A stretch of DNA of 64,000 bases from a virus. The translations under genes and the position numbers were made by a program. This document shows positions 9,272 through 49,700 of the stretch, one piece after another (position 1 is the stretch's first letter; each line of letters begins with the position of its first letter). Location of the stretch: positions 1 to 64,000 of IMG/VR virus record IMGVR_UViG_3300010354_000066; one strand, 5' to 3'. A model generated the notes under the pieces. It was not told where the DNA came from. It saw nothing but the letters and a program-made list of their open reading frames with translations, and did no database searches.

Positions 9272-10507
9272 ATGGCTACACCTGGAGTAAAAACTTTAAT
9301 AAGAGATCGCTTCTATAGCGTCTCACGTCAGGACACACCAGTTGGTCCCAGAATCGTTGCGATTGCCAAGCGTAGTACCGCCAGTGGCACAGGTTCTGTA
9401 GCTGATCTTGATGTCGTTAGAGCCTCTAATGAGGCTGATGTTATCACTGCATTTGGCGATGGCTCAGATGCTCACCGCGCCTACCTAGAACTTATTTTAG
9501 CTGGTGCCGGCAGAGTGTATATTGTTCCGTTGCCAAGCGATACAACATGGACCCATAGTACCGGAACAGTAACAAGTAGCTCATATGGCGGCAGTGTTTT
9601 TGACGCTGCATTCATTGCAGCTGAAGCTGTTATTCCTGATGTTATTATTCCATGGGGAAGAGGCGCTCATCCAGATGAATGGGCAGCTACTCCAAGTTCT
9701 CCAGAATTTGGTTTCTATGCAGATAATAGTGCCACAGTAACTAGCAACTGGGCCTATAAGGTAGCAGCTAAGGTTAAGGACATTTCAGAGAATATTAACC
9801 CATGCGTCGCCGTTATGGGAATCAAGCCCTATACAGGAGCTTCAGAAACAATGACTCCTGGTCAGGTTAACTCACACTTAGCTGTTAGCTCATTGCCAGA
9901 TCGTGACGCCAGTGATCTTCTTAAGGAAGTTGGACCATATGTTACAATCGTAGCATCAGAGGTTAAGCCAGTTAATTATGTATCTGGCACAACAGAATTT
10001 GGATACTCAAATGGTGCAGCTAACTTAGCTGCAACTATGAGTCTAAATCCTTCTTATAGTTCAGTAGTTAATAAGCCTTTGTACAACATAGATTCTGTTC
10101 GCTACGCTCCAACAAGAACTCAGCAGGCAGCTTTAGGAACAAAGGGCGTTAACTCTGTAATTATAAACTTTAACAAGATTCCAGTATTTGGTGAAGGCCT
10201 AACATTCGCTTGGTCAACATCAGATTACACACGTCTCTCAACAAAGAGAATTGTTGACGACGCAACATCAGTTGTAAGACAAGCCTGCCAGAGATTTGTT
10301 GGTGAGCCATCAAACATTCAAACACGCAATGCAATGGAAACAGCAATAACATCTGGCTTGAGAGGAATGCAAATAGTAGGAGCCTTACTTGGTAGTGACT
10401 TTACAGTCTCTTACATACCAAACGAAAATAAGGCGATTGTAGACCTCATTTTAACACCTGCCTTCGAGCTCAAAGAAATCGAAGTCAGAGTAGCCATTAA
10501 TCTATAA
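9272..10507 (+). CDS. Major tail sheath protein
   Basis: This 411-residue protein builds the contractile sheath around the tube. The opening MATPGVKTLIRDRF, the segment TASGTGSVADLDVVRASNEAD, the DFxxxxxxxxG-type central domain with DVIIPWGRGAH, and the end (SGLRGMQIVGALLGSD, then LTPAFELKEIEVRVAINL) match phage sheath proteins, whose C-terminal strands interlock with neighbours. Codons are biased toward CGT/CGC and GCC compared with flanking genes, in keeping with high expression. It has its own likely promoter and strong ribosome site. It lacks the Ig-like N-terminus of the other sheath-like protein and is about 120 residues shorter, so it is probably the true repeated sheath subunit. Confidence 0.85.
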   Translation: MATPGVKTLIRDRFYSVSRQDTPVGPRIVAIAKRSTASGTGSVADLDVVRASNEADVITAFGDGSDAHRAYLELILAGAGRVYIVPLPSDTTWTHSTGTVTSSSYGGSVFDAAFIAAEAVIPDVIIPWGRGAHPDEWAATPSSPEFGFYADNSATVTSNWAYKVAAKVKDISENINPCVAVMGIKPYTGASETMTPGQVNSHLAVSSLPDRDASDLLKEVGPYVTIVASEVKPVNYVSGTTEFGYSNGAANLAATMSLNPSYSSVVNKPLYNIDSVRYAPTRTQQAALGTKGVNSVIINFNKIPVFGEGLTFAWSTSDYTRLSTKRIVDDATSVVRQACQRFVGEPSNIQTRNAMETAITSGLRGMQIVGALLGSDFTVSYIPNENKAIVDLILTPAFELKEIEVRVAINL

Positions 10508-10519
10508 TAATTACCGATT

Positions 10520-10525
10520 AGGAGG
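10520..10525 (+). promoter_or_regulatory. Perfect Shine-Dalgarno AGGAGG for tube 1
   Basis: AGGAGG 9 nt before the ATG at 10535, the strongest ribosome site seen in the window. It agrees with tube 1 being made in large amounts. Confidence 0.8.
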
Positions 10526-10534
10526 GTAACTTAA

Positions 10535-11197: not shown

Positions 11198-11217
11198 TAG
11201 TTTTATCACTCTCTAAC

Positions 11218-11252
11218 AAAGGTGCATGGATGTATATTCCGTGCACCTTTTT
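11218..11252 (+). terminator. Rho-independent terminator between tube 1 and tube 2
   Basis: A 12-bp stem (AAAGGTGCATGG at 11218-11229 with CCGTGCACCTTT at 11239-11250, one G-U pair) with a 9-nt loop and TT at its end; the stem itself supplies more T. It separates the abundant sheath/tube genes from the rest of the tail genes and so can set their ratio by read-through. Confidence 0.85.
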
Positions 11253-11269
11253 AGTTATAGGAGAATAAT

Positions 11270-26045: not shown

Positions 26046-29000
26046 ATGGCAATAAATTCAATAGCACGACAAGCTCTTACATATATAGCTGAAAGCGACT
26101 TAGACTATACCACCCTAAGCGCCTATCTATCAGATCAGTCCGTTTCTACATCTAGCCTATCTGCGTTCCTTCAGTTTGGCGATAACGTAGATTTATCTAC
26201 TCCAGATATAACCGGTTCACAGTTAATTAATTTAGACTTTAATGATAAATATTCTTTAGCCTTATACAAAAAATCTGTATCGATTTTTATATCTGGAACA
26301 GCAATAAATACGTCTTTAGTATTAGATGAATATCTTAGTGTTATAAGCGCTAGATTTGGGGTTTTGCAAAATCCAGGTCTTTCTACTGAAGCAGATATAA
26401 TAAATCACTTTGTAACAAACTATGCATATACGGATGCGGATGAAAAGGTAACTAAATTTTTAGCATCTAAAATATTGGAAAGAATAACAATATGGTATGA
26501 AACATCTATAGATGTTGGCATTAATGATGAAATGCTAGAGCAGCTTCTTGCATTTGAAGAAAGATTGGTTTCCGAAGAAACAGTAGAAGACGAAAAAAAT
26601 TATGAAGAAGATGAAGCAATTTACCAAGTTCAGAGGTTCTTTAGTTTAATATATTTTGGCGCCAACGACGGAACTGAAGTAGACCCAATGGAAGAATTTT
26701 TCCAAAAGACAAGAAAAGATGAAATTACAGAAAAAAATGTAAGAGCAACTTCGAGGGTTTTTGGCATAGATATTAAAAATCTTTTAAATACTTCAGAAGA
26801 AGAAACTTTAGCTAGAAGTATATATTCCAGGTTAGAATCTACCGGTTTAATCTACTTGGCATCCTATGCCTATGAAATAGGAGAGTTTGCTAAGAAAAGA
26901 CTGCAAAATATAGCAACAGTTAAAAAATCTGCAAATGATTTTATAGATCCATCGGTAGATACTCCATGGTTACAACAACTAAGTCAAGTTGTTTATAGTC
27001 TTCAGCAAGATCCTATTTCATTCTCTATAATAAACCACTATTTCCCATCATTGCTGACGTTTGTTTTTGATGCTATAGCTGTTGTTGGCGACTATTCAAA
27101 TAACGGAAAGGGTGGAGGCCAAGAGGATACTCTTAATAATATGGCAGACGCTATTCTTTCGCTAGAAAAAGCATTTGGTGTTAGTCAATCTGGTAAGCCA
27201 ATATTTACTTTAGCTGGCACAGAAAAGTTTTATACAACTTCAGAAAGAATTAAAAAAGCTTTACAAGATTTTCCATTCAGGGCAAATATACCACCTAGAA
27301 AACCAGATATCTTTCATTTAAGACTAGGAGCTGCAAACTTTTATGTTCCACCAGTTTCTGTTAGTGTTAATTCTGCATTTAAAACTGGATCCCTTACAGG
27401 TGGTGCAATACGTCAAAGAAACACTCCAAAGTTTAATGCTGGATACAAAGAAACCACGGTATCGTTAAGATTATTTTTCCCTAACTATGAAGAAATATGG
27501 GGTCTCTCAATAGACGACGCTTCTAGCTTAGATTTAAATGAAAACTTTACTATAGATTTCAAAAATGGTGGAGACTCAGAAGATAAAATAGATAAGTTCT
27601 TATCCTCACTCAGAGGTTTAGTTGCAGCGTTTAAGTATTCTCCAATTCTACCAATCAAGAATCAGTATATAAACTCTGTGCACGGAATTACAGCTGTTGC
27701 ACTATCCGCTATGTCTATATCAACAATACCAAGTTATCCATTTGCATTAGTAGTTGACTTAGAATTATACAGTTATAATCACAAGCCATTCTTGCCAATG
27801 ATTAAAGATTTTAATCAGGCTATTCACTGGGGTAAATATCGTCAATATATGGGCAAAGCCGCAGGAGAAATGCATAGATATGTTAGTGAGGCGTTTTTAT
27901 TAAAGACATCAGATGATAAAGCTACAAATCAAGCGGATACGTATGAGGTTAGTCCATACGGCGCAATGCCAGTAGATACAACTGATGAAGATGGCATCTT
28001 GGCAGAAAACTTAGAATATGTTAACACTTACGATAATGATGTACTGTCTACAAATATAGTTACTCAATGGAAAGATGGAAGCAATCTAACTTTGTTTGTT
28101 CCAGCAGAGACACAAACAAAAATATTCCTACCAGACAGCACTTCTTTTAGAAGTGAGCAAGAAAAAATATTAAACGAAACTAGTTCTGGTCTTTGGGATA
28201 GAATTCTAGAAAATTTTGGAATTGATCGTACAAGTCTTACACCATTAATAAAAGATATTAATGACATATCTTCTCTTTCGTTAGAATCAACTTATCCATT
28301 ATCCACTAAAAAGTTTGTTCGTCAAGCAATTGACATTATGACAGCAGGCACCAGTACTGACGACTTTAGAGAAAAAGTATATGCGTATAAAGTAGAATCA
28401 TTTATTTCAGAAAATATAACTAGAATAGATTCAGAACAAGCAAGTTGGTTAAGAAATTATCCTGGCGAAAATGCAAGTCCATCTCTTCATTTTAATCAAT
28501 ATCCAACAATTGGTTCTGAATCTTATTATAGAAATAATGAGATTGTTAAAAATCCAGAAGGAGATAACGCAAGTCTTAATTATATTAAGTACTCTATTTA
28601 CAATGAGTCGTCTGCCTCTGGATCAATAGTAGATGAATTGGTTAATCAAGAAGTTCTTCGTCAACAAAAGAGCACTGGTATTACTGAAGTAGATCAAGAT
28701 AAAATTCGTCAACAAATAACTGACGCTTTCCAGGTAAATCTATATGAAAGATTCTTTAAGGATGGATTCGTAAAGAACTTAATGGAAGCAGTTCGGTTAA
28801 GAGAAGGTGATTACCATTTTAACGAATGGGAAGTTCCTATGACTAGAGTTGACCTAAACCCTAAAGAGGCCATTGTTAATGGTGTAAGCGTTACTATGGG
28901 TAACAATTTGGCAAAGCTGCAAGTTCAAATGCAGGACGAACCAACTTATCAATTTATAGGTGGCAAAGATACATATATAAATATTTCTTTAACTGTTTTT

Positions 29001-32000
29001 GGTGAAAAAGAATTAATTAAAATAAAGAATATTTTCGATCATGCAAATGGTTTAGCTAGATTAGAGCACTCTACCGGTGTTATAGGTTTCCTAGGAATTA
29101 AAAATATCATATCAGCTTTAGCTGGAGTTAAGTATGTATTACCTCTTAACTATAGAGTAGATACAATACCCAACTATCCACATGTTTATTCTGTTCAGTT
29201 AAGTTTTGTTGACTTTGATATATTCCAGCAAAAAAGAGAGAAGATATCATCAGACCAACAAACAAAATTAATAGAACATTTTGGAACAAAAAGAAATCCA
29301 TTCTTAAGAATTAAGCAGATGTGGGGATCTTTCAATGCGTATCCAGATCTTCCTTTGTCCATAAAAGACAAGGACGGGGGCGTTGTAGGTAATCTAGATC
29401 CAGACTTCTATTTTAGAAGTTTCTCAATGTTTGATTCTGATATTATTAACAATACAAAAATACAATTAGATCTAACTGAAAAGTTTGAATTTGATAATTC
29501 AGATGACTGGGCATTGGGGACATCTGATAACTTAGAGAGAAAAATACAATCAGTTAGAAATACAATATTAGATTTTATTACAAGATATTCCTATACAAAC
29601 GCTAATAACCAAGATGCCCGAGAGCAAAGGGCACTTACTAATGAGCAGTTAATAAACGAAATGATTGACTATGTTCAGAGTACTGGAATTAGTGTCCACA
29701 ATTTTGTAAGCATATTTCAGGATGTTGTTTCTGCAAATACAGAAGGGCAGTCATCAGTAAGGAAACAAGCCCTGTTGACTGATTTTATCTTTTTATCAGC
29801 CTCTTCAAGTGAAGATTTGCAAATATTTGAAGACGTAAACGGCGCTCCATATTTAGTGGGAAACGTTGGTGTAACAAATACATCTACAGAAGATCTAATA
29901 AAATATATTTTAGCTAATTCTCATTTAGAAAATGAAACCCAAGTTAGCTTTGATCCTGATGAAGTAGAGTTTCATAAAGTAATAACAATAATTCCCGGAA
30001 TGGATCCAGAAGAACAAAATCCAAATGAAATCCCAGCCTTTATGCAGACTGCACTTGGAACTCATTTTGGATATATCAATAAAGAAAATGGAAGATTTTA
30101 TCTAACAATAGATGGATCCAATGTAACTATAGAAAATGATGAGAATAGTTCTAGTGGAACAAAAATAAAGTTACAGTCTAATTTCGTAGAAGATACACAA
30201 ACCCCAGATAGAGGATGCACAAACTCTCTAACAGGAGTAGCTGGAGTTAGTTCACTGAATCAATATCAACAAGCATATAGCGGTGACTTTAACGGCCATA
30301 TGGAGAAAATGTTAAATGATATTCAGTATCGCGACATCTCCGGAAGAATGCTTAGAGCCTTTCCAACTTACATGCTGTGGTTAATAGATGAAGGTGGAAT
30401 GTTTGCAGGTGTTAAATTATTTGATAATTTCTACGGACTACAATCTATTGTTGATTTTTCTGTTGTAAGTTCTGAAGATCTTTTGGGTGACACTCTTATT
30501 TTAAGAATGTCAAATATGTACTCTAAGTTAACAACTCGGCCATCCACAGAAATATTTAATGCAAATAATGACGAATTCAGCAATGATCCTTTGAATCTAA
30601 CCGATGGCATAAGTGCAATACTTGATAGAACATTAAATGTCGCTAGAAATATTATTTCTGGAATGAGAAATAACTATGTTGTTGATATCAACAATATAAG
30701 ACTCAAGCCAGGAGTTAGAGTTCACTTAAGATGTGGATATGGAGCAAATCCAAATTCTTTGCAAACCGTTTTCAATGGAGTGATAACAAATGTTGAGCAG
30801 GGAGAGATTGTAACAATCACTGCTCAATCAGATGCAATTGAGCTAGGCGCTGTAGTTAACTCAACTAATAAAAAGGGAGATACTGGAAAAATAGATGGTG
30901 GAGTAGATACTGGAATGTATCTATCGGAGCCACGAGATCTTATGGTTAGACTTCTTAGCATGGGTGCCAGTAGATTTAAGGAAGCCTATGCAAGAGCAAC
31001 TAACGGAACCGTATTTTCTGAAAATAGATTTGGTATTAGACACTTCGGCACAATGTTGTATGAGCCACTTAATGATATAGAAAGAGCTCGTGCAGATGGA
31101 ATTAGACAAACAGTTGCCGGAGTTTATAATAATCTTTCTGAACTAAATATTGGAGGAGCAGCTAACTCCGCAGCATTTAGAATTTCTAATGTTTTCAGTA
31201 GAGATCCCGTTAGTGGACTATTCGGCAATGGTAGCTTAATGACTAGTATGGGTCAACTAATCTCTAACTATTGCTCTGATGTAGACCTAGAATTATTTAA
31301 GAGAAATATTTATCCAGGAAATGGAACGGGCTTTGCTCAATTCCTTGGAGGAGACCTTGATGATGGTTGGTCTACAGCTTCTTCATTTTCACAGGATTCA
31401 ACTGATAGTCTTAGACTTGCTGGCCAAAGATATATTGAATCCGCTACAGATAGATCTTGGAACCGCTTAATAGTAGAAGCAGAACTTGGTTCAACCGCAT
31501 CTACTCAAACAATAGAAAACTTAGTAGAAGACAATAAGTTAGTTTCCGCTGAAGGTAGAGCTGGATTGGTCGCAGGTGTCCTTAAAGGTGCTGCAACAAT
31601 AGGCCTTGCAGCACTAAATCCAGTAGCTGGCGCAGTAGCTGGTGCAGGACTATTTGGTCTTCTAAGGGGGCGTGGTGGAAACAACTTATTTAGAACTATG
31701 GGAATTATATCGCCCAACGCTGACGATGATTTGCAGGGATTTGATGAGGTATCCTTTAGGGCTCAAACATACATGAGAACTGTTTGGGATTTATTCCAAA
31801 CCTGTGCACGTCTACTTCCAAACTACATAGTTGCAGTTAGACCATTTGAAGATAGATCAACAATTTTCTACGGAAAACCACATTGGCTATATACTTCTGG
31901 TGTAGTTCCAGTAACAACGGGTTTCCCAAGTGACGAAAAAGCGGCTCAGCTAAATCTTCCTGGATATCCAAAGATAGTTCAGCCAAATAATGATATAGAA

Positions 32001-35000
32001 AATATTATTAATCAAGTAAGTTCACAAACCAACTCTTTAGCAGATTATGAGGCCTTTAAGAGATCAACTGAACTTTCAGATGTTATATCTGATTTGGTGC
32101 AAGATCAGGTTAATTCCAGAGGAATATATGCCCCAACTGCATCTGTTAATGGTAGATTGATTAACTTTAATTCTAATTTGGCATCTTCTTATTCGGAAAG
32201 AAATGAGAATGGAGTTTATAACGTAGTTTGTAAATTACCAGTAAATGTTGGAAAAGTTAGAATGGGATTTCACTTACCCGTAGGAGATCCAACTAAAACA
32301 TTTGCAGACAGAGGAAACGACAATGCTCAGGGTCATGCTCAAATAGACAACCTTCCAATAAGATTTAGATACCCATTTTATACTGTTAATGAAAATGTAA
32401 TACTCAATAAGTACTCAACAGAGATTCGAGATGGTGGATTATTAGAAGGTACGTATACAGATCTTCGAGCAGAAGGACAAAGATATCCAGTTTCTCTTAA
32501 GGTAGGCTCAGTTGAAATAGCTAGCGATGATTTAATAGATAGATATGTAGAAGATGGAGATACTGTAAAAACAGGTGTATCGGGAGGGCTGGAGTTTACA
32601 AAGGGCATTCTTGCATTGATGCAAGAGGAAATTAATTTTATAAAAGAAAACTCCATAACGATTATACCATCTTCTGAAATTACCTATGAATTAGATAGAC
32701 CTTTAGGTCTAGCTAGTTTAACAGATCAATTAAATCTTGGTGAACAAAGTTTATTTGGAGAAATAAACATAGTAAGAATGCCACTACCATCAGTATCAAT
32801 ATTTGCTAGTGGTGGAGAAAATGATATTGGAGCGATAACAGTAACAACGATAGACGCTGCTGAAAATGCAGATGATTATTCTTTTGAATATGAATTAAAT
32901 GAGCAGATATCGTATCAAGAATGGGGTTCTCCTAAGGGTCTATTGGAAGAGCAGTTTTATATTGCTATGAAATGGCCATATAAACCAGGTTCTTCTGATA
33001 AATTAATACAAGGAGAATCTCTAGAAAAGTTTAAGGAACAGTATGGTTTTGTAAACCTCTATGGTACTGCGGAAGACTATAAAAATAGAAAAGTTTTAGT
33101 ATTTAGCCCATTAACTCAAAGGGCAGTTGTATGCGCACCAGCATACTTTATGTGGGGTGAAGATTCAGATGAAGACGTTGCTGCTGTGGTCTCTCCCGAT
33201 GCCGCCTGGTACTTAGGCTCACTTGTCTCTAGTTTAGTAGATAAAGTTCCTGATGAATTAAAAAATAATTTACCAAATTGGGCTAGTATCGGATCAACTG
33301 AATCAGAAGACGTTTCTATAAATTTTAAACATTCTGGCGGCGATTCTAGAAATCCACTATATACATTAGAAGAGTCTAGTGGAATTGCAATTCAACCAAG
33401 GCTAGTAGATTGCTTCTTTGCGTTTGTTCCGGATGATGTTCCAGTTGGAGTAGTATCTTCTGAATTAGCGCCAGTAAAGAGATTTTTAGTTGGCGATGAT
33501 AAAGCTGTTAATGAAGAGTATATTATTGGATTTGGAAACTACACGGCAACAAATGGAGAAACTCTAACTGCTCAAAGAAAACAGCTAACAGGTTCAGCTG
33601 ATAGTTTAGAAAGACAATTAGCAGAATCAAGTGGAATATTTGCAGAGTGGTCAGCATCTAATGCAAGTATTTCCGATATTGATTATACATATGGTGGAAA
33701 TGTTCTTAAGAGCGGTGATGACCTGGGATATTTTGAAGCCATATTAGATATTACAAAAATATCTAATGATACAGATGTTTTAAGTAGAAGTACTTTGTAT
33801 GACAGATTAGATGGCGAACTATATACAACTGGAGACGACGATACTGGTTCTGGAAGAGTTGGATTTGCTCCAGTTTATTCCATGATGGATTCTGTTAGTG
33901 TTGAGGCGCGATCATTCTATGATGAAAATTTTGATCCAAACGTATCTGTTATAGCCGGAAACGGCAGAACTCTATCACAGGCTAATGATATATGGGATCA
34001 ATTTAGATTTGGTTACCACACATACGAAAGTGTAAAAAATATATTTGCAAAAACATATGGTTTAGATCCTGACGACACTACAGAGTTCCCTGAAGAATTC
34101 AAGAGAATTTTAGATAAAACTAATTCAAAAATATTTTCTAATTTTTCAGATAATACTGTAGATGTACCTGGATTAGAAAATGTAGGAAATATAGAAAATA
34201 CTGGTGTTGATGAACTAGCAATCTTGTTAGGCGCAGATTTCTTTGCAGACTCTAATAGGCAAGGTACGCAACAAGGAACTTCTCAATTAGAAGCCAGGAA
34301 GCAAACAATAGAATTTATAAGAACAAATTACATTGATGCAACAAGTCAGGGAATAAGCGGAGATGCTGGTGTCATTGAATACTTTAATAATGTTATATCT
34401 AAATCTTTAGATAATATTAGAGTTAACTTTTTTGAAAACCAAATAATAAATAACCTACTGCAGTATTCTATTGAGAATACCGATAATCAGAGTGAGGCAA
34501 TAAAGTTATCGGATCAAATAAAAACACCTAAGCAGTTATTCTTATTAATGGTTGGATTGTTTAGGCAAAAACTTTGGAGCACAGCTTATGGTAGAGCTTG
34601 GTTAGTTCTCAAGCCAGACAGAAAGAAAGGTCCTTTTGGAAACGGTAAGGGCTCAGAAGGCTCTTGGTCATTTAAGCCAGTAGATAAGGTTTTCGAAGCA
34701 TTCATAAGTCCATATTCGCAGTATGCAAAAGGTAGCGAAAAATTCCTACAGCTACTAGTTTCTACCGCTTCAGAGGGTAGCAATTCTTCAACTTGGATAG
34801 GTGGAATAGGTGAAGACGCATCTGACTTCTATCAAAGAAATATAGGACCAATATTTACTGCAATTGGGGATGGTCTTAGTGGACTTCTCGGAATGTTTAA
34901 ATTAAACATGATGCAGATGGGTTACGCTATATCTGAAGTTGGAAACTTTGGAAAACAAGCACATATCTTAAATAAGGTTTTAAATGATTCAATTTATTAT

Positions 35001-37301
35001 TCCTTGGGTAGACCTGGCACTTTATTAAGAGCAGTAGATAATCCATTCACAAGAGAATATGGTGAACCAGTACTAGAAGTACGACAGCCATTTCAGCGAC
35101 TACATTACGTTAGTTCTTTCTCGCATATTATTTCAAATCAAATACAAGAGAATCTAAATAACGTAGCAACTGTAGTTACTGCGGTATCAGATGGAAAGCA
35201 TCCGGTTACAGTCGCTCTTGATAAAGGTGCGCCACCAGAACGTCAAACTGAAATAACTGTTGAAACAGGAATATATTATGACAATATGATTGGTTCTGGA
35301 TTCCTTGGAGTACTGCACCCATTAATGCATCCCCTTGAAACATTTAGAGGAGTGGCAAAAAATGCTCAAGGTACACCAGATGAATTGTCTGCTAGAAGAA
35401 TAGCACTAGCACACCTAAAAGAATCTATTAAAGATATTTATGGTGGCGAACTAATCATCATAGGAAATGCAGATATTAGACCGCATGACCTAGTATATCT
35501 CTCAGACGTCTATGAAAGAATGTATGGACTATTTGAAGTTGAACAGGTTGTTCATCACTTTACTCCGGAAATGGGCTACATAACATCAATTACACCCAAC
35601 GCTTTAGTTACTGTTAATGACCCATCGCGCTGGTTCCTATCTTCATGGTTAAGATCCTGGCTGGGGCTACAAAATATTAGAAATGACACTAGATTCTATA
35701 TAGACAATATTATGGCGTCAAATACTGGAATAAATGTTGGCGGTGATATATCAGTAGACGCCCTATCAGATGCCCTAATGCCACAAATGATGGGTGGAAT
35801 TGAATATACGCATGGATCTACATCTTTAGTTAAAGATATTATGGCTAATCAAACTGCATTAACATTACCACAAAAAGCTCAACAGTTAATTGACGCAAAT
35901 AAGAGTGGTTCAGATACTGGATTTAAGGCAGTTGCTGGTGGATTAATAGTTGGTTCTGGCCTAATAGCAGCTGCAGCAGGCGGAGCAGCCGCAGCAATTG
36001 CACTTCCTATAGTTGGACAGCTAGCTTGGAAGGGCTGGAAATGGATTAGAGATAACGTACTTGATCAGCATGGCTGCTACATACAGTACTTAAATAAGAA
36101 TGGTCAACCAATGGACGCTGGCTTATCATATAATCAAGGTATGGTTGTCGGAAGATATCATTCTAAAGCACTTCTTCCAGGTTTACTTGGAGCCAGAAGC
36201 AAAGTAAAAACTCCAGAAGGAAATATATTCATTAGAAGTGATGATCTATTAAAGAGTCTTGGTTGGCAAGAAGTAGAAATAAAAGATTTAGTTAGACATA
36301 TAGACTATGAAAATGCAATAACACACGCAAGAGTTTTGCAATTAAGCGGTCTTGGTCCAGAAAAAGCAGATCTCCAACCATCACTGTTCAGGGTAATCGT
36401 AAAAGTTACCGAATTTATTGACGGTGACACTTTCTGGGTTCAAGATATAATTTCTGGATCTACATTTAAGGTTAGATTTGATGGAATAAATACTGGAGAA
36501 ACTAATACAATTAGAGTTGGCGGCATTCCAAATGAACCAGGTAATGAAGATAATCAAACGCAGCTTACTTCAATAAGTACTCCTGGTGGAAGGGCAAAAC
36601 TCTATACAGAAGAAAAGCTTAAGAACAGAATATTTGTTCTTAGAACAAAAATAAGTAACTCAGCAACTGATGATGTTATATTTGAACAACAATTTGAACC
36701 TGGTGCAAATGAAAATACAGTGGCAAATTACGCCAAAGACGTCACCGCATCAGAAAGAGTTTTGGGCACAATTTGGTATTACCAGCCTGAATCAGTTGTT
36801 CAACAGGCCGAACAATTTGTTCAGTCTTGTTTTATAAAGAATAAAGGAAAAAATGTAGGCGATCCACAAAGCCTGGATAATTTGATTATTAAAGAATTTT
36901 TTAAACAAATTTATGAAGATTCCCCATTATATATACATAGAAATAGGATATTAGGAGCAATTGACTCATTTAGCCGAGTTGCATATGAAACAGCCCAATA
37001 CCAACCACCTAATTTCTTGAAAGAAAATTCTGAAGAAAATTATGGATATAATGTTAATAATGTTGAATTGGTGTACGACGCGCTAGTTCAGTTCTATATT
37101 TTAGATAAAATTTACCAAAAAACAAGTGAATGGCCTACTATATTCTGGGATGAATATTATGAAGATGGATATCCAGTTACATTAAACTGGGAACTAGTAT
37201 CGAATAATTTAGCTCAAGTATACGCTAAGCAAGTGCAGATAGAGTCTGAGTCTGTTATTTCTGCAGAAGAATCAGCCCTTATGCCAAGGAGAGTGATCTA
37301 G
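26046..37301 (+). CDS. Giant baseplate/hub protein with nuclease-like domain
   Basis: A 3,751-residue protein, the largest in the window. From N to C: a helical region (1-400); two related beta modules (about 417-480, with FNAGYKETTVSLRLFFPNYE, and about 925-990, with FIGGKDTYINISLTVFG); a hub-type beta domain (about 1556-1602, KPGVRVHLRCGYG then FNGVITNVEQGE) like gp27/D-family baseplate hubs; an Ala/Gly-rich hydrophobic stretch (about 1840-1877); long beta and helical parts; a second hub-like piece (about 3140-3186, DIRPHDLVYLSDVYERM then VEQVVHHFTPEMGY); a second hydrophobic stretch (about 3295-3330); and a staphylococcal-nuclease-like domain (about 3449-3580). It overlaps the lysin gene by 1 nt. 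Fusing hub, membrane-like and nuclease parts in one chain suggests a protein at the tail tip acting during DNA entry. The whole-protein role is inferred. Confidence 0.6.
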   Translation: MAINSIARQALTYIAESDLDYTTLSAYLSDQSVSTSSLSAFLQFGDNVDLSTPDITGSQLINLDFNDKYSLALYKKSVSIFISGTAINTSLVLDEYLSVISARFGVLQNPGLSTEADIINHFVTNYAYTDADEKVTKFLASKILERITIWYETSIDVGINDEMLEQLLAFEERLVSEETVEDEKNYEEDEAIYQVQRFFSLIYFGANDGTEVDPMEEFFQKTRKDEITEKNVRATSRVFGIDIKNLLNTSEEETLARSIYSRLESTGLIYLASYAYEIGEFAKKRLQNIATVKKSANDFIDPSVDTPWLQQLSQVVYSLQQDPISFSIINHYFPSLLTFVFDAIAVVGDYSNNGKGGGQEDTLNNMADAILSLEKAFGVSQSGKPIFTLAGTEKFYTTSERIKKALQDFPFRANIPPRKPDIFHLRLGAANFYVPPVSVSVNSAFKTGSLTGGAIRQRNTPKFNAGYKETTVSLRLFFPNYEEIWGLSIDDASSLDLNENFTIDFKNGGDSEDKIDKFLSSLRGLVAAFKYSPILPIKNQYINSVHGITAVALSAMSISTIPSYPFALVVDLELYSYNHKPFLPMIKDFNQAIHWGKYRQYMGKAAGEMHRYVSEAFLLKTSDDKATNQADTYEVSPYGAMPVDTTDEDGILAENLEYVNTYDNDVLSTNIVTQWKDGSNLTLFVPAETQTKIFLPDSTSFRSEQEKILNETSSGLWDRILENFGIDRTSLTPLIKDINDISSLSLESTYPLSTKKFVRQAIDIMTAGTSTDDFREKVYAYKVESFISENITRIDSEQASWLRNYPGENASPSLHFNQYPTIGSESYYRNNEIVKNPEGDNASLNYIKYSIYNESSASGSIVDELVNQEVLRQQKSTGITEVDQDKIRQQITDAFQVNLYERFFKDGFVKNLMEAVRLREGDYHFNEWEVPMTRVDLNPKEAIVNGVSVTMGNNLAKLQVQMQDEPTYQFIGGKDTYINISLTVFGEKELIKIKNIFDHANGLARLEHSTGVIGFLGIKNIISALAGVKYVLPLNYRVDTIPNYPHVYSVQLSFVDFDIFQQKREKISSDQQTKLIEHFGTKRNPFLRIKQMWGSFNAYPDLPLSIKDKDGGVVGNLDPDFYFRSFSMFDSDIINNTKIQLDLTEKFEFDNSDDWALGTSDNLERKIQSVRNTILDFITRYSYTNANNQDAREQRALTNEQLINEMIDYVQSTGISVHNFVSIFQDVVSANTEGQSSVRKQALLTDFIFLSASSSEDLQIFEDVNGAPYLVGNVGVTNTSTEDLIKYILANSHLENETQVSFDPDEVEFHKVITIIPGMDPEEQNPNEIPAFMQTALGTHFGYINKENGRFYLTIDGSNVTIENDENSSSGTKIKLQSNFVEDTQTPDRGCTNSLTGVAGVSSLNQYQQAYSGDFNGHMEKMLNDIQYRDISGRMLRAFPTYMLWLIDEGGMFAGVKLFDNFYGLQSIVDFSVVSSEDLLGDTLILRMSNMYSKLTTRPSTEIFNANNDEFSNDPLNLTDGISAILDRTLNVARNIISGMRNNYVVDINNIRLKPGVRVHLRCGYGANPNSLQTVFNGVITNVEQGEIVTITAQSDAIELGAVVNSTNKKGDTGKIDGGVDTGMYLSEPRDLMVRLLSMGASRFKEAYARATNGTVFSENRFGIRHFGTMLYEPLNDIERARADGIRQTVAGVYNNLSELNIGGAANSAAFRISNVFSRDPVSGLFGNGSLMTSMGQLISNYCSDVDLELFKRNIYPGNGTGFAQFLGGDLDDGWSTASSFSQDSTDSLRLAGQRYIESATDRSWNRLIVEAELGSTASTQTIENLVEDNKLVSAEGRAGLVAGVLKGAATIGLAALNPVAGAVAGAGLFGLLRGRGGNNLFRTMGIISPNADDDLQGFDEVSFRAQTYMRTVWDLFQTCARLLPNYIVAVRPFEDRSTIFYGKPHWLYTSGVVPVTTGFPSDEKAAQLNLPGYPKIVQPNNDIENIINQVSSQTNSLADYEAFKRSTELSDVISDLVQDQVNSRGIYAPTASVNGRLINFNSNLASSYSERNENGVYNVVCKLPVNVGKVRMGFHLPVGDPTKTFADRGNDNAQGHAQIDNLPIRFRYPFYTVNENVILNKYSTEIRDGGLLEGTYTDLRAEGQRYPVSLKVGSVEIASDDLIDRYVEDGDTVKTGVSGGLEFTKGILALMQEEINFIKENSITIIPSSEITYELDRPLGLASLTDQLNLGEQSLFGEINIVRMPLPSVSIFASGGENDIGAITVTTIDAAENADDYSFEYELNEQISYQEWGSPKGLLEEQFYIAMKWPYKPGSSDKLIQGESLEKFKEQYGFVNLYGTAEDYKNRKVLVFSPLTQRAVVCAPAYFMWGEDSDEDVAAVVSPDAAWYLGSLVSSLVDKVPDELKNNLPNWASIGSTESEDVSINFKHSGGDSRNPLYTLEESSGIAIQPRLVDCFFAFVPDDVPVGVVSSELAPVKRFLVGDDKAVNEEYIIGFGNYTATNGETLTAQRKQLTGSADSLERQLAESSGIFAEWSASNASISDIDYTYGGNVLKSGDDLGYFEAILDITKISNDTDVLSRSTLYDRLDGELYTTGDDDTGSGRVGFAPVYSMMDSVSVEARSFYDENFDPNVSVIAGNGRTLSQANDIWDQFRFGYHTYESVKNIFAKTYGLDPDDTTEFPEEFKRILDKTNSKIFSNFSDNTVDVPGLENVGNIENTGVDELAILLGADFFADSNRQGTQQGTSQLEARKQTIEFIRTNYIDATSQGISGDAGVIEYFNNVISKSLDNIRVNFFENQIINNLLQYSIENTDNQSEAIKLSDQIKTPKQLFLLMVGLFRQKLWSTAYGRAWLVLKPDRKKGPFGNGKGSEGSWSFKPVDKVFEAFISPYSQYAKGSEKFLQLLVSTASEGSNSSTWIGGIGEDASDFYQRNIGPIFTAIGDGLSGLLGMFKLNMMQMGYAISEVGNFGKQAHILNKVLNDSIYYSLGRPGTLLRAVDNPFTREYGEPVLEVRQPFQRLHYVSSFSHIISNQIQENLNNVATVVTAVSDGKHPVTVALDKGAPPERQTEITVETGIYYDNMIGSGFLGVLHPLMHPLETFRGVAKNAQGTPDELSARRIALAHLKESIKDIYGGELIIIGNADIRPHDLVYLSDVYERMYGLFEVEQVVHHFTPEMGYITSITPNALVTVNDPSRWFLSSWLRSWLGLQNIRNDTRFYIDNIMASNTGINVGGDISVDALSDALMPQMMGGIEYTHGSTSLVKDIMANQTALTLPQKAQQLIDANKSGSDTGFKAVAGGLIVGSGLIAAAAGGAAAAIALPIVGQLAWKGWKWIRDNVLDQHGCYIQYLNKNGQPMDAGLSYNQGMVVGRYHSKALLPGLLGARSKVKTPEGNIFIRSDDLLKSLGWQEVEIKDLVRHIDYENAITHARVLQLSGLGPEKADLQPSLFRVIVKVTEFIDGDTFWVQDIISGSTFKVRFDGINTGETNTIRVGGIPNEPGNEDNQTQLTSISTPGGRAKLYTEEKLKNRIFVLRTKISNSATDDVIFEQQFEPGANENTVANYAKDVTASERVLGTIWYYQPESVVQQAEQFVQSCFIKNKGKNVGDPQSLDNLIIKEFFKQIYEDSPLYIHRNRILGAIDSFSRVAYETAQYQPPNFLKENSEENYGYNVNNVELVYDALVQFYILDKIYQKTSEWPTIFWDEYYEDGYPVTLNWELVSNNLAQVYAKQVQIESESVISAEESALMPRRVI
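36390..36790 (+). other. Staphylococcal-nuclease-like domain inside the hub giant
   Basis: Residues about 3449-3580. The run FIDGDTFWV matches the SNase DGDT loop (D3459, D3461, T3462); VRFDGINTGE gives Arg 3477 (R35 in Staphylococcus nuclease), Asn 3482 (replacing D40), Thr 3483 (T41) and Glu 3485 (E43, general base); GGRAKLYTEEKLKNRIFVL matches the following helix and strand; and Arg 3571 before VLGTIWY fits R87. Three key catalytic residues and one calcium ligand (D21) are kept; the other (D40) is Asn. Compare residue spacing: R35 to D40 is 5 in both. Real homology is likely; activity with the D40N change needs a test. Confidence 0.75.
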
Positions 37302-40984: not shown

Positions 40985-42154
40985 ATGACTGTATACGGTA
41001 TTAAAAATAAGTCTGATATTTTAGTAAATGTACTAAACTCACTCCAGAAAGACGCAGGAATTACTGCGATATATCCAGGGTCGATAGCTAGGGCGTTTGC
41101 TGAGGCGTTTACTTCTGAAATATCTGACCTTTATGAGTCTCTTAGATTTAATATTAATCAAAATAACTTACTGACAGCTTCTGGAAAAAATTTAGACCTT
41201 ATTGGCGATCTTTATGGGATACAAAGAAAAACTATAACAGATTATTCCGCAGAAGATAGACAGTCTTTCAATATAGAATTTTTTATAAATAAAGCTCACA
41301 GCTCTGATGTACTAATTCCTAGCGGAACACTTGTTTACAATGATGTTAGCAACTTTGTTACAAAACAGTATTCATTTAAGCTAGTTGGAGACGTCACTAT
41401 CGCCAGGGGAAATCTAAAAGCTTATGGTAGAGTAGAGCCAAATTTCACTGACAATGCCTACGTTGCACCAGTTAATTCGCTAACTAAACATAGCTTTTTT
41501 TCTCCAGCTGGAGTAATACTGTTTTGTAATAATCCAAAAGAAGTTTATTCAAATGTAAATTCAGAGTCAGATTCTAATTATAGAAGAAGAATAGTAGCAT
41601 CTATAAAGTCTAAGGCTGTTGGAACAGTTGAGTCCGTACGCTTCGCAGCCTTGTCTGTTAGAGGTGTTAGGGATGTAAAAATTAGAGAAGGATCTTATGG
41701 GGTTGGTTCTTGTGACATTATTGTTGTTCCTGAAAATTCTTCAGCCTTATCAAATTTACCTCAAAACATCATACTTGCAACTTCACAAGTAAAACCAGTT
41801 GGTGTTAAATTTAATGTAAGAATAGCCGAAAAAGTTGGGATAGGATTGTCTTATACAATAAGAATTCCTATGGGAGTAAACGAAACATTGGCAGCTGGTA
41901 TACGAAATCAATCTGTGCTATTCGTTAAAAGGTATTTAAATTCTCTATCTGTTGGAGAAACTCTCTCCGTTGGTGAGTTAGAGCGTCAAATAAAGACAGC
42001 TTCCGACTACATTAGGGGTGTAGTAATAACTGCAATGACAGCTGATGGAAGAGAAATTCCTTTGACAGATTATACTCCAGATGGTGTTAAAAAATACTTA
42101 GCAGCTGGAACTATAACGGTAAATTCTGTTATAATGGGTACTTCAGTTTATTAA
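40985..42154 (+). CDS. Baseplate J-like wedge protein
   Basis: A 389-residue protein of the baseplate J (gp6-type) family, which links wedges into the baseplate ring. AGITAIYPGSIARAFAEAFTS, then NLLTASGKNLDLIGDLYGI, SGTLVYNDVSNFV, YRRRIVASIKSKAVGTVESVRFAALSVRGVRDV and NVRIAEKVGIGLSYTIRIP follow the family order, including the short GT(V/A)ES(V/L) motif. It begins 1 nt after the stop of the gp25-like gene, behind AGGAG, the typical pair order in contractile tails. Confidence 0.8.
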   Translation: MTVYGIKNKSDILVNVLNSLQKDAGITAIYPGSIARAFAEAFTSEISDLYESLRFNINQNNLLTASGKNLDLIGDLYGIQRKTITDYSAEDRQSFNIEFFINKAHSSDVLIPSGTLVYNDVSNFVTKQYSFKLVGDVTIARGNLKAYGRVEPNFTDNAYVAPVNSLTKHSFFSPAGVILFCNNPKEVYSNVNSESDSNYRRRIVASIKSKAVGTVESVRFAALSVRGVRDVKIREGSYGVGSCDIIVVPENSSALSNLPQNIILATSQVKPVGVKFNVRIAEKVGIGLSYTIRIPMGVNETLAAGIRNQSVLFVKRYLNSLSVGETLSVGELERQIKTASDYIRGVVITAMTADGREIPLTDYTPDGVKKYLAAGTITVNSVIMGTSVY

Positions 42155-45100: not shown

Positions 45101-46736
45101 GAGAAGAGCAATTCACACTGGCCATCTGTTCTTAAATGAAGATGAATATTACGTTTATTCAGAACCAGTTACAGAGACATTTAATGGTCAATTCTTCTCT
45201 ATAAAGTTGAATTCTACGCCTACCAACGGATCTCCAATTATTGTCAATGTTCATGAAACACAGTATAGAAATATAGTTTTTGAAGATAGCGCAACACCTG
45301 GCAATTTATCCTTTGTAAATACAGAGTCTGTTTATGGGAATTTTGGCAACTCGCTATACTTAGCCTATGAAGATGTATTTAATATTACGGTTGCAGATAA
45401 ATATACTGGCGAAATATTATTCTCAGATTTATCAACCACAACAAACAAGCTAGAGTGCTTCGATCAGTCAACTCCATCAATTATTGGAAGAGAATATGAA
45501 GTAACTTATACAGTTAATCAGGCATGGAGTATAGATAATCGTGTTTACGATTCTGTAAACGATGAATATAATACATATATTTACTTTAGTACAACACCTA
45601 ACTATGAAGAAATATATTCAATTACATATGAATCAGCAATTAATGACAATACTCAGACAATAGATTTAGATGTAAGCCCAGATGTTAACCCCATTGATGA
45701 GGGATATGTTTATGTATCATTAAGTGAATATGATTTCTCTCATACAGAAACATACCTATCTCCAGGGTATATCTCCGACGCATACTCTGACATAATGCAC
45801 CTCTCCATAGTTTCTTATGATGAAAATGATAACATAAAGCCTGGTCAAACTTTTGAAATTTCAGGTAACCTAATATTAGCTACACCAAATTATGTAACAA
45901 CGAATGATAATGGATTAGCAAAAACACTCATAAGATATACAGGTCCTCAGCCAGCCGAGGTAACTTCTTCAACAATTACCATTACTGGTATAGGATCGGC
46001 TACACCAAATGGTGGATCTAATAGCCAGACAGGATCTTACGTTGAAAGTATACCCTTTAATATTAGAAGAACTGAACCAAATAGAGTTTGGATAAAAGCA
46101 GCTCCCACAGATTTTATAATAAATGCCGACGGAGTTAGCTCAATAGGAATATCTGGAAAAATATTGTGGAAAAATGATTCATTTAACCACGAAGTTCAGA
46201 TAGCTTGGAATAAGGCAAGAACCCTAAAGGACCTTTTTGCTGCAACACCAGATTATTTAATTACCTCACAGGCTGATGGTAGTTTTGAAATAGATACTGC
46301 AATGACTTCACAGGAAGTTGGCGCTCCAGGATATTGGTTTGCTAGAGTTAATATAGTTAATGATGAAATTGTTCGAAATCTTTTAGAAGAAGATGGGGAA
46401 ACTGTTGATTCAACAGACGTTACTATAGCTGGAGATGTTATATATTGGTATGAATCCTATGACCCAATTCAATATAGCAATGAATCGGATATCCCGCTTC
46501 CAAACATATATACAGTAAACAAGCAAGACAATTCAGAGCTAATAGCAACTCCTAATTTTGTTTACAACCACACTAATCCATCGGTACTATATTCATTAGA
46601 TACAACACCAAACTGGCAACCCCCAGTATGGACTATGTTAAATAAATATACACAGTATCAGATGGGAATAATGGGAACAACTCCAAATATAGTCGTTGAC
46701 TACTCGCTATTGCATCCGGATCATGAGGAATACTGA
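42171..46736 (+). CDS. Large baseplate/tail protein with many TP motifs
   Basis: A 1,521-residue protein, ATG at 42171 (7 nt after AAGG); an in-frame TTG one codon earlier is less likely. It follows the J-like protein, where the I/gp7-type wedge protein is expected. Residues about 355-405 (YKKRILDVYRNLPGVYKEAL, then RTLRRELDIWKAYG) resemble the helical core of such proteins; much of the rest is beta. An Ig-like domain near residues 1205-1305 has KPGQTFEISGNLI and TNDNGLAKTLI. It is unusual in holding about 31 (A/S/T)(T/S)P tripeptides, often followed by N/D/S/E and then an aromatic or aliphatic residue. The gene overlaps the next by 1 nt. Wedge role is inferred from order. Confidence 0.55.
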   Translation: MKQYLLLLRSSDFNKSSNVWTSNPINLYHNTAYTNYSYTRSRYGLNLIGDNIYTGIELTSPSFSEDHATPLVQNSVYMTDAGEVIYDAATPDLLRFVDTSSRIDILAYKHTFTNVAGDEVPTFNIQIYESDEENGPWLQSKVSFDSNAIFIRNSKPWIKIELEIFTETGNTSDLGLLFYLEIGIHDITSPVVSQNTKNILRRFPTWTSLFEDSEEDATPSTATPNSSGGKFLSALLQDSIDQFVTKIDLQNINNYIASANEEILTWVYVSYNIPVNVIGVVGDGVKLSAVHDLGYFYNLKPTDHAYFYNPIDKQILTIRQYDSLLVNGIAFDQYPTNVFNIFDEFGVRVGLPRLFLEDNSRYKKRILDVYRNLPGVYKEALQRTLRRELDIWKAYGATPDSDYAGATPEIIEISDMEVSTPYFSDSGIPLQKFKDIVLDINKRYPTNIGYVRWEEGIWDYAGMENEGVSRISAIYDAASSPLTDLYQPGIGDFSDARLIVESVEKSTISFDGYAEISGVYRSADKTYYNPIKLDFSWYLSYLQTASSYSAESIDGGVGLTYEITTKAHANYATPSTFYANLNYLNREDFYVYNRYGQDHVSSPEFNLIKIFTQEGNTLNDIEFRDKTYNEVYNNPSSPNFSSISIEDVSQVKIVFSNGGWDYLTQDYDTTIDIGDYWGGFNLSTPNYYVNPSAGTETSIASPNITADNVNLRIGSTVYNDDVFIQDTNQISSYVYLNEGNSRFEQSLTTPIIYVDDLVDLIIYPPNATPEYLYINSAAPVGLAYFGTDNIINNTAGGAVVDFVDNNRYLVPSSPNILYSFYDESGVQLTTPQYFDSATINFSSTPSYIKFESASGNYYPLYREEYFSFSAQTTPQLFSGFIDSLDNVYENEEQYLVSYFNSDTFLKTINLDSNSFNLNLEYIYDIKDINFLSDTNDIIVYVENKDQLVENINNAVENSDSIEVSLHAKKDTAALMAKRRAIHTGHLFLNEDEYYVYSEPVTETFNGQFFSIKLNSTPTNGSPIIVNVHETQYRNIVFEDSATPGNLSFVNTESVYGNFGNSLYLAYEDVFNITVADKYTGEILFSDLSTTTNKLECFDQSTPSIIGREYEVTYTVNQAWSIDNRVYDSVNDEYNTYIYFSTTPNYEEIYSITYESAINDNTQTIDLDVSPDVNPIDEGYVYVSLSEYDFSHTETYLSPGYISDAYSDIMHLSIVSYDENDNIKPGQTFEISGNLILATPNYVTTNDNGLAKTLIRYTGPQPAEVTSSTITITGIGSATPNGGSNSQTGSYVESIPFNIRRTEPNRVWIKAAPTDFIINADGVSSIGISGKILWKNDSFNHEVQIAWNKARTLKDLFAATPDYLITSQADGSFEIDTAMTSQEVGAPGYWFARVNIVNDEIVRNLLEEDGETVDSTDVTIAGDVIYWYESYDPIQYSNESDIPLPNIYTVNKQDNSELIATPNFVYNHTNPSVLYSLDTTPNWQPPVWTMLNKYTQYQMGIMGTTPNIVVDYSLLHPDHEEY
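42351..46690 (+). repeat. Dispersed (A/S/T)(T/S)P motif cluster in the wedge protein
   Basis: About 31 tripeptides of type ATP, STP, TTP, SSP, TSP or ASP within 1,521 residues, roughly one in 49, not in phase or equally spaced. Examples: HATPL, DATPS, TATPN, GATPD, LSTPNY, NATPEY, SSTPSY, TTPNY, LATPNY, AATPDY, IATPNF. The codons vary (ACA/ACT/ACC/ACG, CCA/CCT/CCG), so it is a protein-level pattern and not a recent DNA repeat. The hub giant, more than twice as long, has about 3. Confidence 0.7.
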
Positions 46737-49700
46737 TGAAAAAATTTACCAACATTACTACAAACGAAAATGAAAAAGCAATCAAAATAGGAACAAACGT
46801 TCCTGCAGACGCAGCAGTTTTATCTTGGTATACATCAGAATCAATTTCTCCAAAAAATAACATAGTTACAGTAAATGTTTCAGAAACAATTCTAGAAAAT
46901 AAAATAAAAGAATCCTATGATGCAGAACTAATGTACGCAGATGAGTTGGGAATCTTAAGAAGAATGAACGGATCATCAGTATTATCAACTGATGACATTA
47001 CGATAAGTAATCTATTCCTACACAGGCCAACAGTATCTGAAACACTGAATCCTACCGAAATAAACGCTAACGATTTTGGTCACTATGTTTATATAAGTAG
47101 ATACTTTACTGCCGCTCCTGCAATTTTTAATTTTACATCTTACAACAATCTTCCTGACCAAGATCAAATATATAATCTTGGCATAAAGGTTTTAGATGAA
47201 TTTGGAAAAGATTATATTGATCTAAATACAAATAGAAAAAAATATAAGATTCTATTAGAACCATATAAAACTAGTGCAAACGTTAACCTAGAGGAAATAC
47301 CATACAGAGTTATAGTTGTACTGGATAGTTCCTATCCTTTAAACCTTAAGTTAATGTACAATAAAGTTGAATCTGATGAAAACGGAAAATTTAGCAATCA
47401 ACAGTTAAGATATACAGAAACTATAAATGCTGTTAAATACTTTAATAATATTCCAGAAGAGTCTTTTGTTATAGATCCTAATTATTATGGATCTAGGAAT
47501 TTTTCAATTAAAAAGATTGACGAAAATTATTCCAGTGTAAACACAGGTCATGTTTCTATAACAAACGGATATCAAGCTCTTGTACCAAGCAAGGCAATTA
47601 AAGACTATAGAAATTATGAAGTTTTCAATTGGAGAATAATAGGAAAAATAAGAAGAAATATTAATCTACAAGACATAGATTATGAAATAGATTCTAATCC
47701 AGATTCTCCAGTTAGAATAAGAACTGTCAAAGCTGGAATTCTTTATTCAGGCTCAACAAATCAAAATATTAATCCATACGTTTTGTATAGATTAGAAAAT
47801 TCTCCATTTAATTTAACTAAGCTTGTATTTGAAAATCCACTTACGACATTAACAGACAAATCTTTAGCTAATTATTGGAAAGTAAATATAGACTCAGTTA
47901 CTTCAGCCCAGTTAAGTCAATTCGATGTGCTTCTCTGGTCTCCTGACTCTACAATAACTTCTAGTCAAGCTAGTCTTATAAATAACTTTGTTGCCAATAA
48001 TTTTGGAACACTTATCCTAGACCTGTCCTTCTGCCCTAATGCATCTAATGTAAACTCCGGAGGACAACTAAATATGACATCTTCTGTAGTAGCCAATAAT
48101 GTTGACATGATAGATACCAGTATCTGTATTGATGCAACAAAAAATGGTGGATGGACTATAAATGATACAATATTTGAAAAAAATTATTATAGCGTTATAG
48201 GCTCTAGTAAAATAAATGGAGTTTCACCCAAAAGCTATAAGTACTTTGCTAATGCAGTAAGTTCAAATACATTTGTTAAAGCTGGACCTAGTTCTTCTGA
48301 TCTTAAGTCAATTGGCGTTCTATTATCATATCCGCGTCAAAATGATAGCCTTACAAAAGGAAATATATTAGCCACAACATTTGGGCTAATGTCATACTGT
48401 AACAGTATTTACGATATTGCAAATCCAGACAAAGTATTAAATATTAATAATGGAACATCACATTTTGGTACAATTAATAGTAGTACAACTCTATTTTCTT
48501 CTGTTATAGAAGGGCCATTCAAGTTATTGTTCAACTCCATCTCATACGCTATGTACTGCAAAGCTCTGTCGATGAGACAAACAAGTTTGGCTTCTTCAAT
48601 AATTAATTTTATTACAGATTGGTCTTCCTCTTGGGTTATGTATTCCCCAGCACTTGAAGACAGTGAAAAGCCGGATTTTGATCTTATATCAATAAACTCT
48701 AGTACGTCTCTTTATGCAAGGAATTTAACGAAAAATTCAGCATCTACTAATACAAGCATATTTGACTACTTTAAATCACAGCTTACATTAAAGATGTCGC
48801 AATTCCAAAGGTCAATAATAGAAGAATTATCTGTAGACGACATTGAATTCTATGTTGAAATTACTAATCCAGATGTAACAATTAAAGATTCTACAAAAGT
48901 AGCTGATCCAAATTCTGCTTCTGTAGATATTCCTTCTTCTTATACGTTATATAAGATAAATACTTCAAGTTCTTCAAATCCAGCCACAAGACCACTATAT
49001 GCATACACGCAAAAATATAGTAGATCGTTGTCAAGAATACTAGGTTTGGGCCCACATATATTGCTCGAAAGGCCAGTTAATAGTAGTTCATCAAGATCTT
49101 TAACAAACTTATTAAGTCCATCTTTAGGGTTTAATTCATATCCATTTAGACTAAAGTCTCTATATACCATGTATGAAGGAAGTGATATTCCTTACAGCTT
49201 TAACTTCAATTTTACAGGAAAAGCAAACTACACTGTCAACGCCACATACAAGGGTAAAAAAGAAATAGATATTCCTGTTGGACCAAAACCAGCTACACTT
49301 CCCGCAGAAAATGTAAAGTCTGGAATCGATGACTATCAAACCAGTAGATCAACTAACGTAGCAGATGCCTCAAACATATTCCCTTACACAGGCGATATAG
49401 ATATACATGGAGATCCTAGAATTTGGGTTCAAGGTTCGCCAACACATGAATATGTAAAATATATACAGTATACTTTAGCAGCAGCTGGTAAATATAAAGG
49501 GGCTATAGATGGATCATATGGGCCAGTTACTGCTCAGGCTGTATACAATTTCCAAGTAGCTAATAATCAAAGATTTAAAGATTACAAAGTTGATAGTGAG
49601 ACTAAATGGTATTTAGCTCTTGTGTGGTTAATAAAAAGAGCTTTTGAGGGACAAAAAGCTTTAGATGATTGGAAAGCATTTGCTACTCCAGACATAAGAA

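Follow-up and report, generated by a model that had tools for sequence, protein, structure and literature searches.

A staphylococcal nuclease-type domain at the end of a giant contractile-tail hub protein

The virus record IMGVR_UViG_3300010354_000066 of IMG/VR is 74,748 bases long, and its bases 1-64000 were analysed here as one stretch (the window). The window holds a contractile-tail gene cluster with a sheath, a baseplate J protein and several very long open reading frames (ORFs). One of these, ORF 26046-37301, is by its homologous core and its place in the cluster a contractile-tail hub of the lineage of Acinetobacter phage ME3, Bacillus phage KLEB27-3 and Moorella phage MTATph1. Profile comparison and a predicted structure confirmed that this hub ends in a domain of the staphylococcal nuclease (SNase) type, in which equivalents of the catalytic residues R35, E43 and R87 are present. 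A fusion of an SNase-type domain to a giant tail hub had been proposed earlier from the letters of the DNA alone (the original prediction), and the proposal was borne out.

Fold and layout of the C-terminal domain

Relatives of the domain were collected from IMG/VR, ten at first, then 24, then the best 80 of 105, which led to 77 loci. A profile of 44 active-type rows, that is aligned sequences retaining E43, was compared by hhalign with ten free-standing phage SNases. The score was 79.7 with an E value of 1.6e-11 over 93 columns, and R3477, E3485 and R3571 were placed on R35, E43 and R87. Three partial sequences (L094, L095, L102) were left out of this profile and of the tree described below, and a fourth (L100) was left out of one set. 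One hundred column shuffles of the profile scored 19.4 or less (best E 0.055), the reversed profile scored 16.7, and three overlapping stretches from elsewhere in the hub scored 9.6-10.1.

A predicted structure, suggested with the original prediction as a check, agreed with this result. The AlphaFold2 model of the hub C-terminus had a mean predicted local distance difference test score (pLDDT) of 70. In the OB part, ten-residue blocks had values between 50 (in loops) and 90; that containing N3482 and E3485 had 65. The top matches of the model in the PDB were SNase structures (Foldseek best E 3.9e-4). Structural alignment by VIA to the SNase structure 1snd gave a Z of 12.5 and a root-mean-square deviation of 3.4 over 114 aligned residues, and it set model residues 48-336, corresponding to hub residues 3447-3735, against SNase residues 7-127. 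The nearest entry in the viral structure library BFVD was A0A6J5M9K0 (Foldseek E 6e-23), an uncultured-phage protein of similar C-terminal architecture (30% identity, 383 alignment columns), which is a 'Baseplate hub protein' by its listing name only. The next matches were mostly viral SNase or TNase entries with E values of at least 2.3e-3. In PHROGs the cut-out hub segment matched phrog_452 'endonuclease' at E 0.0099, and each of the 17 sequences in the first wider alignment matched this family at E ≤1 (best 5.4e-7, window 0.04).

Direct searches were less sensitive. No PF00565 match was found in Pfam for the window protein or its segment, and only one of 17 family members matched PF00565, at 17.9 bits and thus under the 21-bit cut-off. 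A profile of the 17 family rows found no match among PDB sequences with hmmsearch at E ≤10. The search against PF00565 named in the original prediction therefore failed for the window protein, a result overturned by the profile-profile and fold comparisons. We take the failed direct searches as false negatives, because Foldseek, VIA and hhalign all find SNase. Searching GenBank phages by tblastn with a 218-residue segment gave no match at E ≤1. A pattern scan of genome contigs gave 117 pattern matches with no relative among them, and no prophage form was found by that scan.

The length of the protein (3,751 residues), the DGDT loop at 3459-3462, the three catalytic equivalents and the asparagine at the D40 position had all been numbered exactly in the original prediction. 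The range assigned to the domain, 36390-36790, holds for its first (OB) part, but the fold resumes past an insert and ends near 37250 (Table 1). The order is an OB part up to about residue 3580, about 113 mostly helical residues, and a conserved block ending in LNWEL. From the model, we take this block to fill the place of the C-terminal helices of SNase. Within it N3714, at the N100 position, was kept in all 60 readable active-type rows and E3716, at the E101 position, in 58 of the 60. At the Ca2+ ligand positions of the window domain, D21 is kept and D40 is replaced by N. The predicted D40N change is thus present; taken alone it need not mark inactivation, as N occupies this position in three of the ten free-standing phage SNases, including that of the same virus.

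Five relatives (L035 at 10001-11269, L089, L090, L098 and L101) have a longer C-terminal part of 423 residues, compared to about 350. Most of the additional residues of L035 fall within the front half of its SNase domain, which marks a second insertion site.

Table 1. Position of the hub protein, its parts and neighbouring tail genes in the window
Feature	Position	Strand	Remarks
Giant tail hub / baseplate protein	26046..37301 (stop included)	+	3,751 residues; hub matches
Weaker hydrophobic segment, residues 1839-1873	31560..31664	+	maximal 19-residue mean 1.72
Hub core, residues 2999-3197	35040..35636	+	
Uncharged Gly/Ala-rich hydrophobic segment, residues 3291-3328	35916..36029	+	maximal 19-residue mean 2.04
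SNase OB-barrel part, residues ~3446-3580	36381..36785	+	
DGDT loop, residues 3459-3462	36420..36431	+	D19-T22; D3461 = D21
R3477	36474..36476	+	= R35
N3482	36489..36491	+	at D40 position
E3485	36498..36500	+	= E43
R3571	36756..36758	+	= R87
Fast-evolving, mostly helical insert inside SNase fold, residues ~3581-3693	36786..37124	+	boundaries estimated
Putative C-terminal SNase helices, residues ~3694-3735	37125..37250	+	WP..WDEY..G.P..LNWEL
Tail sheath	9272..10507	+	context: contractile tail
Baseplate J / wedge protein	40985..42154	+	context

Conservation of the catalytic site and a degenerate clade

The occurrence of the domain was followed from the hub core, by searches of IMG/VR from which the best 80 of 174 and the best 80 of 167 relatives were used; all totals below describe these. 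Identical sequences were counted once, and the resulting 79 C-termini exclude three isolates. The SNase domain follows the hub core in frame in 76 of the 79 distinct C-termini (in L262 and L275 its first part only), so the same fusion is present in related phages, as had been anticipated. The remaining three carry the domain in another open frame.

In L213, L231 and L220 the break in the hub frame falls after the hub core and ahead of the SNase, and the remainder lies in another open frame. L262 and L275, which differ in sequence, have the break at the same place inside the SNase, again with the remainder in another open frame. Broken frames may reflect gene fission, recoding or assembly error, and intact hubs are the rule.

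D21, R35 and E43 were all kept in 61 of the 76 in-frame C-termini, and R87 was kept in every one of those in which it could be read (59/59). E43 was lost in the other 15, and all 15 had lost R87 too (K in 14, D in one). No readable row had lost only one of the two. These degenerate rows all have E in place of T22 and I in place of D40, and they mostly keep the rest of the site, with D21 and R35 changed in 2/15 and D19 in 1/15. Since loss of E43 alone was used to define the degenerate set, only the other positions count as independent evidence. Among 62 active-type rows, the window included, the D40 position is N in 47, D in 12 and Q, T or A in three. Ten of the 135 OB columns were at least 98% identical in these 62 rows. 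Six of the ten belong to the active site or the DGDT loop (D19, D21, T22, R35, E43 and R87), and the other four are unchanged in degenerate rows. Four of the six positions that we take to be the catalytic and metal-binding set are among the ten columns (hypergeometric P 2.2e-4).

A tree of 55 rows was built from an earlier set of 58 rows with 11 degenerate ones. The 11 degenerate rows formed one side of a branch with a support of 100/99, and the window protein fell outside this clade. Since the catalytic columns are near-invariant in active rows, and E43 and R87 were lost together in one clade, we read the alignment as selection for catalysis in most lineages with one loss.

This constancy is found in a domain that otherwise changes fast. 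The median identity of active rows to the window was 78% in the hub core, 37% in the OB part, 18% in the insert and 67% in the C-terminal block.

The degenerate clade bears on whether the fold is a plug in the hub with a structural or binding role, independent of catalysis and with the active site as a relic. Its C-terminal block remains 64-75% identical to that of the window, and the predicted fold was kept in a model of this clade (VIA Z 12.1 to 1snd; Foldseek top matches SNase, best E 2.1e-3). However, 17 of the 28 rows in the alignment behind that model were active-type, so its fold evidence is not independent, and hhalign of the degenerate clade alone against the free SNases was weak (probability 45, 34 columns). 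In the 61 other C-termini, few columns of this fast-evolving domain are as conserved as the catalytic ones, which speaks against a mere relic. A plug of this kind is in our judgement improbable as a general account of the domain. The suggestion in the original prediction that the nuclease had become a binding module fits this one related clade, but the clade does not include the window protein.

Proposed function at entry

The domain of the window protein is very probably a working phosphodiesterase, with both arginines and the glutamate present and D40 exchanged for N. According to PMC8436206, the SNase reaction uses Ca2+, R35, R87 and E43. We tentatively favour the reading that the hub C-terminus is a divergent SNase-type, Ca2+-dependent phosphodiesterase, which would act in penetration outside the cytoplasm and probably on nucleic acid. 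The virion would carry the domain at the tail tip, in a hub whose relatives bear cell-wall hydrolases at their ends, and penetration is its likeliest role, given the entry hydrolases at the hub ends of this lineage. As the catalytic residues are mostly kept and were lost together in one branch, the domain probably cuts something at entry. It would do so outside the cytoplasm, where Ca2+ should be available. The likeliest substrate would be nucleic acid in the envelope or matrix, such as extracellular DNA or RNA and the debris of lysed neighbours, and low cytosolic Ca2+ would keep the domain off the phage's own genome.

Several observations weigh against this proposal. The metal ligand D40 is N in 47/62 and Q, T or A in 3/62 active-type rows, and one clade lacks both E43 and R87, which implies that the enzyme is not required in every relative. 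The SNase domain also diverges far faster from the window than the hub core (median identity 37% compared to 78%). Such divergence would suit a host-specific target better, because nucleic acid is a constant substrate. Furthermore, nuclease activity as such need not come from the hub alone, since the virus carries another SNase. It is a free-standing canonical gene of 132 residues, located in the same virus record outside the window (G000:67929-68327; L001 1390-1788), which matched PF00565 at E 1.7e-14, over the Pfam cut-off, and has N at the D40 position. Of 38 related records searched, some of which may be incomplete, 31 have a separate SNase gene, namely 23/27 with active-type and 8/11 with degenerate-type hubs. 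Compensation of degenerate hubs by the free-standing enzyme is unsupported, as these rates are similar.

The fast divergence would equally suit another substrate. In place of nucleic acid, the phosphodiesterase could cut envelope polymers with a phosphodiester backbone, for example teichoic acids or other phospho-glycans. Domain and insert diverge rapidly against a slow hub core, hub ends of the lineage are described with wall hydrolases in PMC2147016, and a precedent is given in PMC10194240, where tail-associated GDPD phosphodiesterases are predicted to cut teichoic acids. In its full form this reading would have the SNase fold retooled as a host-envelope depolymerase, in which the insert would determine host specificity; the inactive clade would by now only bind.

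We regard both the altered substrate and the full retooling as very unlikely, and no SNase-fold enzyme that acts on phosphodiester surface polymers is known to us, although no literature search was aimed at this. If true, an envelope depolymerase would extend the SNase fold to a new class of substrates and represent a novel type of enzyme at phage tail tips.

Two hydrophobic segments had been predicted in the hub protein. The one at residues 3291-3328, lying between the hub core and the SNase domain, is real and conserved, but that at 1839-1873 is weaker. A counterpart of the former reached a 19-residue mean of at least 1.39 in all 54 rows tested, the window included, and of at least 1.6 in 42 of them; across the window hub, 1.6 was reached by 18 of 179 stretches of that length. 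The counterpart ends 73-112 residues upstream of the aligned region, and its best 19 residues are uncharged in 50/54 rows. Partial rows and L081, which has a short upstream part, were excluded from this test. The segment would suit an injected nuclease, where the hub C-terminus would accompany the DNA into the cytoplasm and attack DNA or RNA of the host, and the retained catalytic site is consistent with this. However, the tested degenerate rows carry the segment just as the active ones do, and therefore it is not specific to catalysis. The free-standing SNase of the virus could moreover be made inside the cell, and SNase requires Ca2+ levels that are unusual in the cytoplasm. Injection is in our judgement unlikely, if less so than the plug or the polymer-cutting enzyme.

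Hubs of the T4 gp27 type lie at the exit of the tail channel, a position from which the domain might process the phage's own DNA end or trim DNA trapped in the channel at ejection. SNase is not sequence-specific, the genome would be at risk from a nuclease permanently active at the channel, and no sequence sign of a terminus function was seen. This role is considered extremely unlikely. Action on nucleic acid during penetration, outside the cytoplasm, remains the reading that we favour.

Comparison with other tail hubs

The hub ORF matched phrog_20474, a family labelled 'endolysin', at E 1.8e-120 and phrog_8809, whose profile represents the ME3 hub, at E 9.2e-15, and weakly the tail protein family phrog_52 (E 0.036). 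Relatives found by tblastn were MTATph1, KLEB27-3 (32% identity) and ME3 (26%), where the gene labels at the matches are endolysin, putative baseplate protein and baseplate hub protein. In the hub core, identity to the window is 71-100% among the IMG/VR hubs that were fetched, and it is 27-30% for ME3, KLEB27-3 and MTATph1.

A nuclease in the tail tip had been called unexpected, but an SNase domain in the hub of BtI1, a phage-like element of B. thuringiensis israelensis, was published in 2007. In PMC2147016, hub gp147 of phage 0305phi8-36 has peptidoglycan hydrolases at both ends and is equated with T4 gp27 domains by hidden Markov model. For the BtI1 hub the same paper describes an N-terminal SNase domain of no evident purpose and proposes that it was transferred from genes standing alone. 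BtI1, compared by this published description, thus shares with the window a hub of the 0305phi8-36 lineage and an SNase in one protein. The SNase is N-terminal there, whereas here it is C-terminal (residues ~3446-3735 of 3751), split by an insert, present in many relatives and accompanied by an inactive clade.

Two isolated phages have comparable hubs. The ME3 hub (phrog_8809; KU935715) has a homologous core and an SNase in the same ORF. Its SNase (1126-1241; PF00565 E 4.7e-14, over the cut-off) precedes the hub core, is matched by Pfam in one stretch and is followed by an M23 peptidase (1301-1401). The ME3 genome announcement is silent on a hub SNase (PMC5000817). KLEB27-3 gp035 (OM634661) is a homologous hub with the SNase motif set (hhalign E 4e-11), but its SNase lies near the N-terminus. 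The Pfam match at 194-282 scored 12.9 bits with the whole protein and, with the segment alone, 17.9 bits; neither score reaches the 21-bit cut-off. The MTATph1 hub had no Pfam SNase match at E ≤1. We tentatively take the differing positions of the SNase (N-terminal, middle and C-terminal) to reflect at least two acquisitions or a rearrangement. Free-standing phage SNases (PF00565 / phrog_452) share with the hub domain the DGDT loop, R35, E43, R87 and the OB fold, but are separate genes of 115-153 residues (8/10 read whole) and lack the long insert.

Other candidates for a hub SNase were rejected. The SNases examined in phage NCTB and Rhizobium phage RHph_Y65 are separate small genes, and the phrog_8809 match in Bacillus phage G lies in a tape-measure gene and outside the SNase part of the profile.

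Elsewhere in the tail cluster of the window, a giant ORF of 1,823 residues (46736-52207) contains an endolysin-like segment at residues 824-943 (49205-49564; phrog_1493, E 4.4e-6), a possible second entry enzyme. A ribonucleotide reductase gene (62808-63998; phrog_367, E 1.4e-86) adjoins the structural cluster and runs past the window end.

An SNase in a hub is a known kind of protein, as BtI1 illustrates. The C-terminal, insert-split form, its near-universal presence in the hubs examined and the inactive clade appear to be new within the literature searched. Among the papers listed by searches of open-licence PMC literature for SNase or thermonuclease with tail tip, baseplate, hub or phage, no title or abstract opening beyond PMC2147016 dealt with the subject. 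The family constitutes a large natural data set, with the fold in nearly every hub examined, strict catalytic residues in most and one clade lacking E43 and R87. The contrast between active and degenerate domains, together with homologous SNase-bearing hubs in two isolated phages, makes the questions of enzyme or binder, and of substrate, directly testable.

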